Source: Pseudomonadota bacterium (GTDB taxonomy: Bacteria; Pseudomonadota; Gammaproteobacteria; Acidiferrobacterales; Acidiferrobacteraceae). From it: a stretch of DNA of 5,756 bases. Below, one piece after another: positions 1-5,756 of the stretch (the stretch's first letter is position 1; each line of letters opens with the position of its first letter). Where the stretch lies: positions 1-5,756 of the forward strand of contig JAJYPQ010000287.1 in assembly GCA_021795255.1 (NCBI GenBank), read 5' to 3'. The position numbers were made by a program, and so were the translations under genes. The notes beneath the pieces were generated by a model. The model was not told where the DNA came from and did no database searches. It worked only from the letters and a program-made list of their open reading frames with translations.

Positions 1-1439
1 TGCGCACGGCCCAGCAGCTCTATGAGGGTGTCGAGATCCAGGGCGAGACCGTAGGCCTCATAAGCTACATGCGTACCGATTCGGTGACCTTGGCGCAAGA
101 CGCTCTGGCCGAGATTCGCGCGGTCATCAAGGAGCGCTTTGGAGCCAGCAACCTGCCGGAAGCCCCACATCTCTACAAGACGCGATCGAAGAACGCGCAA
201 GAGGCCCATGAGGCCATCCGTCCGACATCGGTGGCTAGGAGTCCGGAGGACGTGAAGGCCTTGCTCGCTGGCGATCAGCTGAAGCTGTACGACCTCATTT
301 GGCGGCGCACCATGGCCTGCCAGATGATCCCGGCTGTGCTCGACACCATGGCGGTCGATCTCGAGGCGGGCCCGGGGGATGTGTCGCGAGCCACGGGCTC
401 GGTGGTGCTGGTGCCAGGCTTTATGGCCGTGTATCAGGAGGGCGCGGATGATCGCAAGGGCGACGAGGACGATGCCGATCGTCTCCTTCCGGACATGCGC
501 GAAAACGATCAGATCGACGTGAAGACGATCCATAAGGAGCGGCACTTTACCGAACCACCGCCGCGGTATTCCGAGGCGAGCCTCGTGAAGACCCTGGAGG
601 CCTACGGCATAGGCCGCCCCTCGACGTACGCGACCATCATCTCGACCTTGCAGCAGCGCGAGTATGTGGTGCTGGATAAGCGTAGGTTCAAGCCCACCGA
701 TGTCGGCCGCGTCGTGAATAAATTCTTGGCCCTACACTTCGAGCAATATATCGATTATGAGTTTACCGCCCGTCTTGAGGATGATTTAGACGCGGTGTCG
801 CGTGGTGAAAAGGAATGGGTCCCCTTACTGCGAGATTTTTGGGTCGAGTTTCATCGCCAGGTGAGCGATAAGGAAGATGCCGAGCGTCCCGGCATTGAGG
901 TGCTGGAAGAGACCTGTCCCCAGTGCCAGAAGCCGCTTTCAAAAAGGCTCGGCCGCAACGGTTACTTCATAGGCTGTACCGGTTATCCCGAGTGCGATTA
1001 CACGCGCAATCTGGGCGAGGACGCCGATGCCCCGGGCCCCGAGGTGATCGCTGATCGGCAGTGCCCCGAATGCCAGGGGGCGCTCGTGATCAAACGCGGT
1101 CGCTATGGCCGCTTTATCGGATGCAGTAATTACCCCGCTTGCCGGCATATGGAGCCGCTTGAAAAGCCTACGGATACCGGGGTCGCTTGTCCGGAATGCA
1201 AACAAGGCGCCTTGCTTAAGCGCAAGTCCCGTTACGGTAAGTTGTTCTACTCGTGTTCTCGCTACCCCGAGTGCAAATACGCGGTGTGGAATCCGCCGCT
1301 TGCCGAACCCTGCCCGCAATGTGGTCACCCTATCCTTACGGTGAAGACGACAAAGCGCCGCGGGACGGAAAAGGTGTGCCCGCAAAAGGAATGCGGCTAT
1401 GCGATTCCTTGCCCTGAATGTGCCTCCGACGCCTCTTAA
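1..1439 (+). CDS. topA: DNA topoisomerase I, 3' part (5' end outside window)
   Basis: Type IA topoisomerase, which relaxes negative supercoils by transient single-strand cleavage through a 5'-phosphotyrosine. The frame is open from base 3, upstream of the ATG at 69, so this ATG is internal and the Toprim domain lies outside the window. The catalytic tyrosine is visible in ISYMRTDS (Tyr codon 66-68; the Arg two residues on is also conserved in the family). Further family blocks are AQEAHEAIRPT and the EASLVKTLEAYGIGRPSTYA region. The C-terminus carries four zinc ribbons starting near 915, 1062, 1188 and 1311, each with CPxC followed by a second Cys pair. Ribbons 1-3 contain the GYPEC/NYPAC/RYPEC signature. 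A lone extra CPEC pair (from 1410) sits just before the TAA. It converges on the minus-strand operon. The identification is secure; only the start is missing. Confidence 0.97.
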   Translation, partial: RTAQQLYEGVEIQGETVGLISYMRTDSVTLAQDALAEIRAVIKERFGASNLPEAPHLYKTRSKNAQEAHEAIRPTSVARSPEDVKALLAGDQLKLYDLIWRRTMACQMIPAVLDTMAVDLEAGPGDVSRATGSVVLVPGFMAVYQEGADDRKGDEDDADRLLPDMRENDQIDVKTIHKERHFTEPPPRYSEASLVKTLEAYGIGRPSTYATIISTLQQREYVVLDKRRFKPTDVGRVVNKFLALHFEQYIDYEFTARLEDDLDAVSRGEKEWVPLLRDFWVEFHRQVSDKEDAERPGIEVLEETCPQCQKPLSKRLGRNGYFIGCTGYPECDYTRNLGEDADAPGPEVIADRQCPECQGALVIKRGRYGRFIGCSNYPACRHMEPLEKPTDTGVACPECKQGALLKRKSRYGKLFYSCSRYPECKYAVWNPPLAEPCPQCGHPILTVKTTKRRGTEKVCPQKECGYAIPCPECASDAS

Positions 1440-1674: not shown

Positions 1675-2457
1675 TTACAGCAATCCTTGCCGGGTCCCTA
1701 GAATAGCACCCTCATTACGGAGGTCCTGGAGGATCACAAGACCCCCTGCGATCGCCGTGTCGGGATCGGGAAGAGAGTAGTCTCGTACTGCTTTTTGTAC
1801 GGCGTCATATCCGCTCAACCTCTCATCCATAAGAATAGCCATTAAACGCATAGTCACGTTATTGAGGGAAAGAAAGCGCACATGATACGCAGCGTCGCGA
1901 AACCCAAGGATATAGGTCGGCCGTGGCGGCAAGTCAGGCTTAAAGCGTGGACCTATCAGGTGCACCGGGTAGCGATAATCGGTGATCGCGAGAATAGGAT
2001 TGAGGACCGGGATACCCTCCGCAAGGACGCCGTTTACTTGGAAGACGCGAGGGGTAGAATCTCCCGATATCGATAAGACAAGCTCACTCCACTCGTAGTG
2101 TATAAGCTCTTTAAGAAAGGGCGCATCGTTTTCTCCGTGGCCGCGTTCTGTTTCCAGGTACCGAATAAGCTCGTTTGGGATTTCATGGAAGTAGGGTGTT
2201 GCGCAGTCGTGGTGCTTTACAAAGTCCTGAACCAGCGCCTTCCAAGCACGCCTACCCGTTACCGCTTGTGCGATGGGAAAACATGCGGATAGGTGTACGT
2301 CTATGTCGTTCAGTATCAGGTCGCTATAAAGACGGATGCGCGCACGCGGGCCGAGGCCAGTCGGCGGTATGCGGTGTTTTGGGTCGCGCAGGTGACGAGT
2401 GAAGGCGATCTGGAAGTCAGATAGCGCATTCACCTGAGGCGGTTTGCTTGAGGGCAT
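1675..2457 (-). CDS. bufC: DUF2063 family protein, BufC/HvfC-type partner of the DUF692 enzyme
   Basis: 260 aa. The N-terminal DUF2063 domain (about residues 10-105) has the family pattern: LSDFQIAFTRHLRD, then R-x-R-x-x-LYSDLILNDI, then a conserved A-CFPIAQAVTG segment and a D-F-x-x-HH-x-x-TPYFHEIP segment. A linker with L-x-HYEWSEL follows. The C-terminal half (about 150-258) matches the second HvfC domain, with the ITDYRYPVHLI stretch. In MNIO systems this protein is the recognition partner that brings the precursor peptide to the DUF692 oxidase; this is known for the family, not shown here. I chose ATG at 2457 because AAAGGAG (2472-2466) lies 8 nt upstream; the in-frame GTG at 2463 is too close to it. 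The start overlaps the end of the DUF692 gene by 41 nt, which implies translational coupling and matched dosage. The name BufC rests on domain and context; HvfC is the equivalent alternative. Confidence 0.88.
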   Translation of the reverse strand: MPSSKPPQVNALSDFQIAFTRHLRDPKHRIPPTGLGPRARIRLYSDLILNDIDVHLSACFPIAQAVTGRRAWKALVQDFVKHHDCATPYFHEIPNELIRYLETERGHGENDAPFLKELIHYEWSELVLSISGDSTPRVFQVNGVLAEGIPVLNPILAITDYRYPVHLIGPRFKPDLPPRPTYILGFRDAAYHVRFLSLNNVTMRLMAILMDERLSGYDAVQKAVRDYSLPDPDTAIAGGLVILQDLRNEGAILGTRQGLL

Positions 2458-3298
2458 GGTCACATCTCCTTTGCAGTGTGCCGATCATAGCGAGCTCTGG
2501 CTCCAAATCGGCAAGTGCCGGGATGCGCATGTCGCGCTCCAAGGTGGTCGGGGCGGCCCCGTGCCGTCTGTACGCGCGTTCGAGGAGGGCCCAGACCGGA
2601 TCAGTGATCGCCGCGCCATGGGTGTCAATCAGTAAATCGTCATTCAGGCGGTCATGTCCGGCGATATGCATGTAGGCGATCTGACTGCTCGGTAGGGCGT
2701 CAATAAAGGCCGCGGCATCAAACTTATGGTTTACGCTATTGACATAGACGTTGTTCACGTCCAAGTGTAGGAGACAGTCCGCCTCTTTTAGGACCGCGAG
2801 TGTGAACGCCAACTCGCTCATTTCCGAGATCGGCATGCGTGCGTAGTAGGAGGTGTTCTCGATCCCTATGCGGTGACCCAGAATATCTTGGGTCTGCCCG
2901 ATGCGCGCGGCTACATGCCTTATCGCTTCTTCCGTAAACGGTAGCGGCAGAAGGCCGTAGAGGTAACCAGTGCCGGAGCAATAAGCTAAATGCTCTGTGT
3001 ATAAGGCGATGCCATGCGTCGCCATGAACAACTTGATAGCGCGTAGTAGCCTCTCGTTTAAGGGCCCGGGCCCGCCCAGCGACAACGATAAGCCATGACA
3101 CACGAACGGATAACGCTCCGTGAGCGCTCGAAGGTGAGCCCCAAGGCCGCCCCCGATATGTATCCAATTCTCGGGGGCGATCTCAAGGAAGTCCACGCTA
3201 TGGGGCAAGGCCTCGGTGCGCAGTTCGGTGAGGAATTCGCGCCGTAAACCGAGGCCTGTGCCGGAGACTTCTCGTCTCTTTTGCTCTGCCATGGCCAA
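2417..3298 (-). CDS. bufB: DUF692 / MNIO family peptide-modifying oxidase, BufB/HvfB type
   Basis: 293 aa TIM-barrel protein of the DUF692 family (MbnB, BufB and HvfB relatives). These multinuclear non-haem iron enzymes oxidise cysteines in a precursor peptide, for example to thiooxazole or to oxazolone/thioamide. Family motifs appear in order: GTGLGLR (13-19), EIAPENW (39-45), HGLSLSLGG (68-76), TEHLAY (101-106), IENTSYY (146-152), LDVNNVYVN (179-187), HIAGH (211-215), DTHGAAI (225-231) and LERD (253-256). By family analogy, probable metal-ligand candidates include His68, Glu147, Asp180, His211, Asp225, His227 and Glu254. No key motif is missing, so the enzyme looks active. The start is ambiguous: TTG at 3298 has a weak GGA 9 nt upstream, while ATG at 3292 shortens it by two residues. 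It lies 43 nt downstream of the small peptide gene and overlaps the DUF2063 gene, so the three are almost certainly one operon. The exact product chemistry cannot be read from sequence. Confidence 0.92.
   Translation of the reverse strand: MAMAEQKRREVSGTGLGLRREFLTELRTEALPHSVDFLEIAPENWIHIGGGLGAHLRALTERYPFVCHGLSLSLGGPGPLNERLLRAIKLFMATHGIALYTEHLAYCSGTGYLYGLLPLPFTEEAIRHVAARIGQTQDILGHRIGIENTSYYARMPISEMSELAFTLAVLKEADCLLHLDVNNVYVNSVNHKFDAAAFIDALPSSQIAYMHIAGHDRLNDDLLIDTHGAAITDPVWALLERAYRRHGAAPTTLERDMRIPALADLEPELAMIGTLQRRCDHALKQTASGECAI
2466..2472 (-). promoter_or_regulatory. Ribosome binding site of the DUF2063 gene, inside the DUF692 gene
   Basis: AAAGGAG lies 8 nt before ATG 2457. It sits within the coding sequence of the upstream DUF692 gene, so terminating ribosomes can reinitiate nearby. 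It rejects the in-frame GTG at 2463, which would leave only 2 nt of spacing. Confidence 0.7.
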
Positions 3299-3341
3299 CA
3301 GTTCAGTTCCGTTGCGGCCCTGTTAGGACAATCGTTGCGCT

Positions 3342-3578
3342 TTAGGATTTATTTGCTTTGAGATGGTGCTCTTTCATATATCGCGCGCTGCACTTGCCAT
3401 CGTGGGCCTTGATCATACCGCTGCTGGCGCAGCCGCCGGCGCTTACCTTGACCAATTGGCCGGTATGAACCACGTCCGCGGCAAATGGATTTGCGGCTGG
3501 GGATGCGGCGAGCGCCGACACGGATAAGGCTAGTGCTGATGCAGCAGCAAACGGAACAATAGTTTTTCTGGCGTTCAT
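3342..3578 (-). CDS. Small secreted two-cysteine peptide, probable MNIO RiPP precursor (bufferin/HvfA-like)
   Basis: 78 aa. Residues 1-24 form a signal peptide: MNARK, a hydrophobic A/L/S-rich core, and a likely cut after ALA at 24. The mature part is about 54 aa, with an NPFA segment (30-33) then VVHTGQLVKVS. It has only two cysteines, Cys50 in GGCAS and Cys63 in HDGKCSA, plus four histidines (38, 59, 71, 72) and a basic tail. D-G-K-C resembles the E-G-K-C-G unit of HvfA-type substrates, and NPF also recalls that group; this is from memory of the family. As the first gene of an operon with DUF692 and DUF2063 proteins, it is most simply their substrate. ATG at 3578 is chosen because AGGAG (3593-3589) lies 10 nt upstream and the signal peptide starts there; the frame stays open upstream. 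The usual four or more cysteines of bufferins are absent, so its subclass is uncertain. Confidence 0.75.
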   Translation of the reverse strand: MNARKTIVPFAAASALALSVSALAASPAANPFAADVVHTGQLVKVSAGGCASSGMIKAHDGKCSARYMKEHHLKANKS

Positions 3579-3588
3579 GAGGGAAAAA

Positions 3589-3593
3589 CTCCT
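3589..3593 (-). promoter_or_regulatory. Ribosome binding site deciding the start of the small peptide gene
   Basis: On the minus strand AGGAG is followed by a 10-nt T/C-rich spacer and the ATG at 3578. This supports the 78-aa product beginning MNARK over a longer form extending to 3653, whose extra 25 residues would bury the signal peptide. Confidence 0.7.
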
Positions 3594-3613: not shown

Positions 3614-3642
3614 ATATTAGCGGATGGACAGACTTCTGTCCC
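3614..3642 (-). promoter_or_regulatory. Candidate promoter of the peptide-bufB-bufC operon
   Basis: Reading the minus strand, GGGACA (3642-3637; four of six bases match the TTGACA consensus) is followed by a 17-nt spacer and TAATAT (3619-3614; near the TATAAT consensus). Initiation would fall near 3607, giving a leader of about 28 nt to the ATG at 3578. The spacing is ideal but the -35 is imperfect, consistent with a regulated promoter. An ECF-type promoter elsewhere in the upstream region is not excluded. Confidence 0.45.
3626..3641. promoter_or_regulatory. Perfect palindrome overlapping the operon promoter, candidate operator
   Basis: GGACAGACTTCTGTCC has 7-bp perfectly complementary arms around a 2-nt centre. 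It covers most of the putative -35 element and the first part of the -35/-10 spacer, a usual position for a dimeric repressor site. It shares the GACA...TGTC look of some metal-responsive response-regulator boxes (CusR/CopR type), but the spacing differs, so no regulator is assigned. No regulator gene is in the window. Confidence 0.5.
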
Positions 3643-4590: not shown

Positions 4591-4604
4591 ATTGATTCGA
4601 GCGC

Positions 4605-4625
4605 GGCAACAGCCATTATGTTGCC
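4605..4625. repeat. Inverted repeat GGCAAC-N9-GTTGCC before dsbG
   Basis: Perfect 6-bp arms with a 9-nt loop lie just upstream of the TACAAT hexamer at 4632. A second small hairpin, TCTTG-TCGG-CAAGA, occupies 4576-4589. They could be an operator or leader structure for the dsbG-dsbD unit; evidence is structural only. Confidence 0.35.
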
Positions 4626-4690
4626 ATAGTCTACAATCGGTCTTAGGCATTGCCAGCAGACCGGACCACACGCGATTTGCGAGGGTTGTC

Positions 4691-5308
4691 ATGATGAATG
4701 CGGAGCGAGAAAGCCTGTCGACACGGATATCACGGCGGTATGCGGCCAGAGCGTGGCCGGCCTGGGCGGGCGTGGTCGTGCTAACTTTGATCATGGGGGG
4801 TTACGCTCATGCGGCGGTACCAAGGTCGGTGCGGGCCGCCCACCTTTATACGCAGCTCGGGCACGCGAAATGGATCGCGTTTGGCCATGGGCCCAAGATC
4901 CTTTATGACGTTTTCGACCCCAATTGTCCCTATTGCCACCTGCTATTCAACGAGTTGAAGCCTCTGATTGGTCCTGACCACTTGACCGTCCGGGCCGTGC
5001 CGGTGGGGTATCTCACAACCACCAGTTCGGCAAAGGCTGCGGCCATCCTGATGGCCAAAGATCCTCGACAGATGCTGCTGCGCGGAGAGGCCCACTTCTC
5101 CTTCCAGCACGGGATGCAGATTCCGTTGACGATCCCCAGTCGGGCCGTCCATCAGGCCCTGCATCGCGCTCTTCAGTCGGTGGTGGCTGCGGCCGGTTAC
5201 GCGATCGTACCGATCCTGGCCTATAAAACGAAAGGCGGTCAGGCTAAGTTCGTCATCGGTCCCCTGGGAACCCACGCACTGCAGGTCCTCATTAAGAGCA
5301 TGCGGTAA
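4691..5308 (+). CDS. dsbG: DsbG-like periplasmic thiol:disulfide interchange protein, short form
   Basis: 205 aa. The N-terminus is basic, followed by a hydrophobic segment AGVVVLTLIMGG and YAHA at 38-41, a signal peptide with probable cleavage near 41. The thioredoxin-fold active site is FDPNCPYCH, with Cys79 and Cys82 (codons 4925-4936). Downstream, SAKAAAILMAKDP (113-125) matches the DsbG helical insert, and IVPILAY holds the cis-proline Pro174. DsbG/DsbC proteins reduce or isomerise wrong disulfides, or rescue oxidised cysteines, and are kept reduced by DsbD. Compared with E. coli DsbG (about 248 aa) this one lacks the roughly 60-residue N-terminal dimerisation domain and starts at the linker helix. 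The residue before the cis-proline is Val, as in DsbA, not Thr as in DsbG/DsbC. ATG 4691 (or 4694) is chosen because GAGGG sits at 4681-4685; a farther ATG at 4592 lacks this and would mask the signal peptide. It overlaps dsbD as TAATG, which fits a DsbD-dependent reductase. Confidence 0.85.
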   Translation: MMNAERESLSTRISRRYAARAWPAWAGVVVLTLIMGGYAHAAVPRSVRAAHLYTQLGHAKWIAFGHGPKILYDVFDPNCPYCHLLFNELKPLIGPDHLTVRAVPVGYLTTTSSAKAAAILMAKDPRQMLLRGEAHFSFQHGMQIPLTIPSRAVHQALHRALQSVVAAAGYAIVPILAYKTKGGQAKFVIGPLGTHALQVLIKSMR

Positions 5309-5756
5309 TGGGAAGGGTCGGCGTTCGGTTGCTCTGGATCAGCCTCTGGGCAATCCTTGGTTTGGTGGAATTAGCGCAGGCGCGCCTGTTGCCGCCCGAT
5401 CAGGCGTTTGGCTTTACCGCTGTGCTGGCACCGCACCACCGTATTGATGTCCGCTGGCGAGTGGCACCGGGCTATCACCTCTATCGCCGCCACGTGCACG
5501 TGCAGATTCGCCCGGCACCCGTGACCCTGGGATCTTATCAGCTGCCGCGGGGACGACGGCTCGTACTCCCAGGCCTAGGGAGCATACCGGTCTATTTTCA
5601 GTCCGTTGCCTTGACCCTACCCTACCATCTGCAGGGCGCCGTACCGGCGGTGCTTGTCGTGACCAGTCGCTATCAGGGCTGCGCCAACACCGGGATCTGT
5701 TATCCACCGATCACTACGACGGTGGCGTTGCGGCGGCCTGTGGGCCCGTCGCCGAG
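5308..5756 (+). CDS. dsbD: DsbD N-terminal domain, 3' end outside window
   Basis: The open frame starts at ATG 5308, sharing one base with the dsbG stop (TAATG), and runs off the window end: 149 codons visible. Residues 1-25 form a signal peptide (hydrophobic core LLWISLWAILGLV, cleavage after AQA). The next part matches the DsbD alpha domain: LLPPDQAFGF (27-36), RWRVAPGYHLYR (49-60), and the reactive pair in YQGCANTGICYPP (Cys125 and Cys131; E. coli has YQGCADAGFCYPP). DsbD carries electrons from cytoplasmic thioredoxin across the inner membrane to periplasmic partners such as DsbC and DsbG; the membrane and C-terminal thioredoxin domains would follow beyond the window. Adjacency to dsbG implies co-transcription and probable redox partnership. 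A weak AAGAG lies 9 nt before the start, so translation is probably coupled. A shorter DsbD-like (ScsB-type) protein cannot be excluded without the missing part. Confidence 0.92.
   Translation, partial: MGRVGVRLLWISLWAILGLVELAQARLLPPDQAFGFTAVLAPHHRIDVRWRVAPGYHLYRRHVHVQIRPAPVTLGSYQLPRGRRLVLPGLGSIPVYFQSVALTLPYHLQGAVPAVLVVTSRYQGCANTGICYPPITTTVALRRPVGPSP

Follow-up and report, generated by a model that had tools for sequence, protein, structure and literature searches.

Known precursor-MNIO-PME1 systems

The closest described systems include: (i) the captophorins/oxazolins (HvfABC, FonABC and NgoABC), whose precursors carry repeated EGKCG motifs, (ii) the bufferins, with Buf1 (DUF2282) and Buf2 (6 or 12 Cys) precursors, and (iii) the chimeras of the Buf_EGKC and EF-hand_5 domains. 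In PMC12452194 and PMC13097082, precursor-MNIO-PME1 operons are described with or without DoxX, their cysteines are converted to 5-thiooxazoles (loss of 4 H) and copper is bound; small secreted ORFs in the hundreds, each with 1-18 Cys and unsorted into families, are likewise noted ahead of MNIO genes. An operon that lacks DoxX and encodes a two-Cys precursor is therefore expected within the known kind. FonABC, as presented in PMC13097082, has precursor, MNIO and PME1 genes only. The MNIO of this system, FonB, is reported to prefer Gly or Ala after the Cys and modified a substrate of two repeats, with Cys five residues apart, and not one of a single repeat (PMC13097082).

A three-gene operon at a synteny break

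The 5,756-nt stretch of DNA analysed here (the window) encodes a precursor peptide, an MNIO and an HvfC partner, co-oriented in this order on the minus strand from 3578 to 1675 (Table 1). The complete precursor-DUF692-DUF2063 operon of the original prediction, which left the strand unstated, is thus present, and its overlapping or short junctions are borne out: the MNIO and HvfC reading frames share 41 nt, and 49 nt separate the precursor stop from the MNIO ATG. An AGGAG lies 8 nt upstream of the HvfC ATG. As predicted, no DoxX-like fourth gene follows, since the convergent topA ends at 1439 on the plus strand, 235 nt from the HvfC stop.

Table 1. Features of the window, with positions and strand.
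Feature	Position	Strand	Basis and remarks
topA, 3' part	3..1439	+	Pfam; convergent neighbour of the operon
HvfC/PME1 partner: DUF2063 and NGO1945 C-terminal domain	1675..2457	-	ATG at 2457; alternative GTG at 2463
MNIO, HvfB type	2417..3292	-	ATG at 3292; alternative TTG at 3298
Precursor gene, 78 aa	3342..3578	-	ORF reading and family alignment; Cys50 at 3429-3431, Cys63 at 3390-3392
Core, 'KAH module' (name coined here), residues 48-72, GxCxSxxMxKAHxGxCxxRYMxEHH	3363..3437	-	Alignments and profile search
NPF leader motif, residues 30-32	3483..3491	-	Invariant in 7/7 window-family members
Sec-type signal peptide, residues 1-24	3507..3578	-	Judged by eye
Ribosome-binding site AGGAG	3589..3593	-	Sequence; 10 nt ahead of precursor ATG
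Inverted repeat GGACAGA-N2-TCTGTCC	3626..3641	.	Perfect 7-base arms, 47 nt upstream of precursor ATG
DsbG-like periplasmic thiol protein (CPYC)	4592..5308	+	NF008657 77.4 bits, below cut-off 124; TTG start doubtful
DsbD N-terminal part	5308..5756	+	PF11412 98.5 bits; runs off the window, overlaps dsbG stop

The inverted repeat is a possible operator; it is absent from the 220 nt upstream of the precursor at L001, a related locus. A sigma-70 scan gave nothing ahead of the operon and a single site on the plus strand (1.7 expected), while a tRNA search found none and the only Rfam match scored below its gathering score.

The host adjoins genomes G375 and G373 by topA identity (96% and 95%, with 87% for G001). 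In these three genomes and in G374, topA is followed by dsbD-dsbG. DNA similarity to the window stops right behind topA, at 1441 (G375) and 1445 (G373), and for the more distant two relatives at 1414 and 1424, with one further 40-nt match within dsbG. Beyond topA the window continues with the operon and then with dsbG-dsbD in the opposite order, at only 41-49% protein identity to the relatives. At E 1e-40, an MNIO is missing from both G373 and G375, and in G001 the operon and topA are on different contigs (C2 and C28). As similarity stops behind topA and these two close genomes are without an MNIO, the operon stands at a synteny break and is patchy in distribution; its setting resembles that of an accessory cassette. 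No mobility gene is seen within the window, and neither copper genes nor DoxX are among its genes. The DsbG-like and DsbD genes are divergent from the operon and are not claimed as members of it.

The precursor peptide

The window precursor opens with a K/R-containing start and a hydrophobic stretch and has, by eye, an AxA-type cleavage site at residues 22-24. It is encoded directly ahead of the MNIO gene and contains Cys, as do HvfABC-type precursors. Among 5.77 billion clustered proteins, two relatives are retrieved by single sequence and six by profile, the latter search also returning two EGKCG precursors with E values of 2.8 and 6.2. Both Cys, their 13-residue spacing and the KAH, RYM and EHH motifs are conserved in the seven-member family alignment; a further seven-row alignment of the core (six of the window family and the core of locus L170) has both Cys and nine further residues invariant. 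Because the family has seven members and L001 keeps a precursor ahead of its MNIO, the gene is taken to be more than a chance reading frame.

The peptide is not recognisable as a member of DUF2282 or HvfA, with whose profiles the original prediction proposed to compare it. The window precursor has no match at E 1 to the HvfA/EGKCG models NF050188 (cut-off 95) and NF050137 (cut-off 19.5), and the six other members reach at best 20.8 and 13.2 bits, both below cut-off. Pfam gives no match, DUF2282 included, the precursor having two Cys and not four; its six relatives have a single, unrelated Pfam match that is below cut-off. The NPF leader is a feature shared with the captophorins/oxazolins, where [NDS]PF occurs in 63 of 72 EGKCG precursors. 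By contrast, the conserved core KAH...RYM.EHH, with its His and Met, sets the window family apart from them: His makes up 8.8% of the window core versus 0.8% on average (4.2% at most) in the 72 EGKCG precursors. Within the family, the residue behind Cys50 is Ala, Met or Thr and that behind Cys63 is Ser or Gly.

The precursor family is apparently small and undescribed, with a possible overlap with adjamnio-3 of PMC12452194. Among the open-licence papers retrieved by literature searches, no title or abstract names a KAH-type core, and a subset of these papers likewise lacks the word Acidithiobacillus. KAH-core precursors may already be included in PMC12452194 (Table S2 or Fig. S3). The CxxxxC class of that paper does not fit because the window Cys pair is 13 apart.

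A relation to the EGKC/EF-hand chimeras was also considered, in which the core would be a decayed first EF-hand and the operon a degenerate member of that known type. The chimeras are secreted and, in their Nitrosospira form, have few Cys, as does the window precursor; those of Nitrosospira type read C-x9-DGK-V-[ST]-x7-HH, a gapless match by eye that resembles the window family in DGKxS...HH, and locus L002, with a chimera precursor, has its MNIO in the clade of the window enzyme. The window family has no match to EF-hand models, however, and column-shuffle tests score EF-hand and EGKCG equally: when the part behind Cys2 is shuffled, 6 of 150 shuffles attain the real score in both cases. Cores from the order of genome G282 (see below) match much better. 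Since the shuffle tests do not separate an EF-hand from an EGKCG origin, EF-hand descent is not favoured over EGKCG descent and is kept as a weak, very unlikely rival.

MNIO and HvfC proteins

Both partner proteins score above family thresholds, in line with the DUF692 and DUF2063 assignments first made. The window MNIO gives 321.1 bits with Pfam MbnB_TglH_ChrH (cut-off 25) and 383.2 bits with NCBIfam HvfB NF003818 (cut-off 360), and its nearest solved chain is 3bww (E 4e-67). Window HvfC gives 221.2 bits with NCBIfam HvfC NF050145 (cut-off 142), 69 bits with Pfam DUF2063 (PF09836; cut-off 27.2) and 67.3 bits with Pfam NGO1945_C (PF22106; cut-off 27); its nearest solved chain is 3dee (E 4e-9). 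It thus combines DUF2063 with an RRE-type C-terminal domain, as is expected of a PME1/HvfC protein. Of the bufferin/HvfA-like core that had been proposed, the HvfABC side stands and the bufferin side does not. Bufferins share an MNIO, a DUF2063 partner and a secreted Cys peptide with the window operon, but their precursors have four or six Cys, and the window MNIO reaches only 254.3 bits with BufB NF050167 (cut-off 310) and falls outside the Buf-type clade of the tree.

Across 171 aligned enzymes, 20 H/D/E/N/Y/R/C columns show at least 97% conservation, and the window MNIO retains every one of them; the Asp of its ERD/EWD motif, the putative catalytic Asp256, is found in 153 of 155 enzymes, the other two being gaps. 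Arg19-Arg20 are retained, and Met257 stands where FonB has Phe250 (residues counted from the TTG at 3298). The positions of the FonB residues (Arg15, Arg16, Asp249 and Phe250) are assigned from the GLG.RR and ERDF motifs, as for 3bww, and not from an alignment of the FonB sequence itself. The Arg-Arg at the presumed FonB 15/16 site is common to the captophorin enzymes and the window operon, whereas the Met or Leu of the window and L001 MNIOs at the presumed Phe250 site sets the two apart. In the MNIO tree, the window and L001 enzymes group together (support 99) within the HvfB/EGKCG side (support 100). They differ by dN 0.32 and dS 2.1; between the two precursors and the two HvfC proteins, synonymous sites are saturated.

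Across the core-associated enzymes, the Phe250 place is Met (window), Leu (L001) or, among the 16 such enzymes of G282's order, Asn in 14 and His in 2; it is Phe in 110 of 128 others, Buf-type rows set aside. The window belongs to a nine-row MNIO set (support 95 in one tree and 99 in a tree of 97 MNIOs), in which L003, L004, L007 and L009 are also without Phe and L002, L006 and L046 retain it. As four of these seven lack Phe, the change may precede the core. The mean share of Gly after Cys is 0.94 in 85 precursors of Phe enzymes and 0.62 in 17 precursors of enzymes with other residues (Mann-Whitney 1e-8, uncorrected for kinship; core-associated enzymes left out, and no usable precursor for 25 of the 110 and 1 of the 18 enzymes). 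Corrected for kinship, two independent pairs remain on well-supported branches (eight on all branches), too few for a sign test to reach significance. The rule that Phe at this site goes with Gly after Cys is thus rejected as a rule and is suggestive only.

These residues bear on the chemistry. Oxazolone/thioamide formation, a cross-link or modification of one Cys only might be expected if Met257 and the non-Gly residues after Cys alter the reaction, and PMC13097082 places F250 of FonB at substrate Lys3/Gly5. Against this, FonB F250A and F250D still yielded the ~305 nm product (PMC13097082), and in the window MNIO the metal-ligand candidates are conserved and the catalytic Asp is retained. Such other chemistry is considered distinctly unlikely.

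Recurrence of the core beside another MNIO lineage

Among 155 MNIO rows, for part of which a usable precursor is present, L170 (genome G282) is the only one besides the window and L001 to bear the core, behind EGGCS motifs (by eye). The order of G282 is represented by 31 genomes; a profile search detects the core in 19 of them, after G174 (E 0.02, in a 605-aa frame) was dropped from the 20 listed. As this first profile had included the L170 core, a second search used only the seven cores of the window family. It covered 12,797 frame segments of 209 partly overlapping loci and matches 20 precursor loci, with E values between 8e-10 and 6.5e-4; the best segment that lacks the core is at E 0.0018. 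Outside these 20 are core fragments at L203, L204 and L206 (frames of 77, 38 and 38 aa; E 3e-8 to 8e-8 with the first profile), as well as L201 and L205 (E 0.02 and 0.05). In 18 of the 20 loci the core lies behind EGNCS/EGGCS-type motifs, L185 and L186 have two Cys only, and none has the NPF or, more broadly, an [NDS]PF leader. Sixteen (L182, L183 and L187-L200) adjoin MNIO and HvfC genes, the MNIOs being of another clade; L184, L185, L186 and L202 have no MNIO within ~1.5 kb. Neither the core nor this recurrence formed part of the original prediction.

A phylum-wide sample of 398 genomes gave 10 matches at E <=0.05, of which only G001 is strong (1.5e-22; next 0.006). Of 369 genomes of the class searched earlier with the single sequence, 18 gave a match (1e-21 for G001, the others at 5e-5 or worse); absence there means little because that search missed G282. 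A plasmid search with the L188 precursor found no match.

The core and an HvfB-like MNIO coincide in 19 of the 31 genomes, and the remaining 12 are without both (Fisher 7e-9, kinship not corrected). HvfB-like here denotes E 1e-60 or better, a limit set after the list was seen, or the MNIO of G805, a fragment of 52% identity where a contig ends; at a threshold of 1e-15, G826 joins, which lacks the core and whose MNIO is more distant (E 5e-42). The MNIO-adjacent precursor of G806 has EGNCS motifs and no core, the core gene being on another contig, and in G803 the core gene and MNIO are on different contigs with no precursor seen directly before the MNIO. Thus, repeats and core can part.

The tree of 97 MNIOs (a quick method, SH-aLRT only) comprises all 18 core-associated enzymes, 6 of Buf type, 18 without Phe250 and every second of the 110 with Phe250. 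The core-associated MNIOs form two groups in it, 16 rows from the order of G282 (99) and the window with L001 (99) in an EGKCG clade, and its well-supported branches force two changes. The simplest reading of this sequence comparison is that the core was transferred between leader/enzyme backgrounds, although an ancient presence with many losses may also account for it.

The order of G282 appears to be that of Acidithiobacillus (Acidithiobacillales), and its members presumably acidophiles, because the rusticyanin of one of its genomes, G808, matches PDB 1CUR, a protein of Acidithiobacillus ferrooxidans, without a difference over 155 residues. A rusticyanin gene lies ~1 kb from the stand-alone core gene of G806, and one is also present in G001. 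A general link between rusticyanin and the core was rejected, as rusticyanin is over cut-off in 8 of the 31 genomes and only 3 of those 8 have the core.

Other precursors

Several precursors of other types were seen. L164 and L168 have another small core, DPAVCG[TS]F-x4-CS-x2-HL, ahead of MNIOs with Glu at the Phe250 place; the L031 precursor ends in this core behind EGKCG-like repeats, and it looks like a further modular precursor core. Two-Cys precursors of a different kind, MACGAG[KQ]CGSSM with an acidic tail, precede the MNIOs of L163, L165 and L166. In the L124 precursor, C-x3-C pairs (RRCGTFCGG, KKCGTFCAG) replace GKCG, and its enzyme has Leu at the Phe250 place. The MNIO-adjacent precursor of G806 (L217) has two EGNCS motifs, no core and the C-terminal end KEGKHVKSHMKQQ, with core genes or fragments on other contigs. 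Among the Nitrosospira EF-hand precursors (P0012 and relatives), some chimeras have a single Cys, with EGRCGMSM before the EF-hand; in P0012, EGKS replaces EGKC, and an MNIO and HvfC nonetheless follow in L002.

Proposed mechanism

The window operon is best read as a minimal operon of the captophorin/oxazolin type, with which it shares operon order, HvfB/HvfC-type proteins and secretion. The three-gene layout without DoxX stands as first described but is no novelty, as fonABC consists of precursor, MNIO and PME1 genes only (PMC13097082); the new part is the precursor, which has two Cys in place of repeated EGKCG and is below the HvfA model cut-offs. Quite probably, the operon yields a RiPP with an unusual, minimal two-site precursor that would be modified to two 5-thiooxazoles, exported and used as a periplasmic Cu(I) buffer. 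By analogy to characterised relatives, the RRE half of HvfC would bind the NPF-bearing leader, and Cys50 and Cys63 would each be oxidised by the MNIO (HvfB), complexed with HvfC, to a 5-thiooxazole with loss of 4 H. The shift to be expected is thus -4 Da per Cys (PMC13097082), not the loss of 2 H first suggested. The peptide would leave by Sec, its signal peptide then being removed. The two thiooxazole thiolates, together with Met55, His59, Met68, His71 and His72, are proposed to coordinate a single soft metal ion, most likely Cu(I), for periplasmic copper buffering; the His/Met auxiliary ligands and the single metal site are the part of this proposal without direct precedent.

The captophorin-type reading is supported by HvfB and HvfC scores over curated cut-offs, tree position, the conserved enzyme columns, core conservation and co-occurrence of core and MNIO. 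Counting against it are the precursor scores below every HvfA/DUF2282 cut-off; the residues after Cys (Ala/Met/Thr and Ser/Gly) and the Cys spacing of 13, set against the Gly/Ala preference and five-residue spacing reported for FonB (PMC13097082); a core-MNIO link by genome, not operon, in G803 and G806; and the lack of a copper gene, DoxX or a sigma-70 site before the operon.

Instead of buffering copper, the peptide may serve a different metal (mercury, silver or gold) or act in redox/thiol chemistry with its DsbG-DsbD neighbours, for which the His-rich core would be suited. The window dsbG-like gene is divergent from the core gene and ~1 kb away, and a DsbG-like gene is likewise divergent beside a stand-alone core gene in G805 and G806 (L209:4779-5426 (-) and L210 ~5944-6585 (+); 31% identity, E 1e-20). 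In this region G805 and G806 are closely related (91% DsbG identity), and the neighbourhood therefore amounts to one event and the window. By tblastn, moreover, the gene is absent from L001 and from the long loci L207, L208, L212 and L213, and the characterised PME1-type products bind copper (PMC13097082). Such a role is considered unlikely.

More tentatively, the KAH core may be a transferable cassette for one metal site, with two Cys and assistance by His/Met, that moved between leader/MNIO backgrounds; in some genomes the product of a stand-alone two-Cys gene would be modified in trans, and the enzymes would have lost a Phe gate to accept the core. This extension is possible but doubtful.

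Significance

MNIO-modified copper peptides are widespread, but the precursors of those characterised are larger or rich in repeats. A natural two-site core with conserved His and Met would be about the smallest substrate on which to solve the metal site and the enzyme contact. With the same core on two leader/enzyme backgrounds, nature itself offers a way to test which enzyme residues recognise the surroundings of the Cys. Acidithiobacillus is known from copper-rich acid waters; a periplasmic copper buffer in its order, as proposed here, would be of practical interest in such waters.
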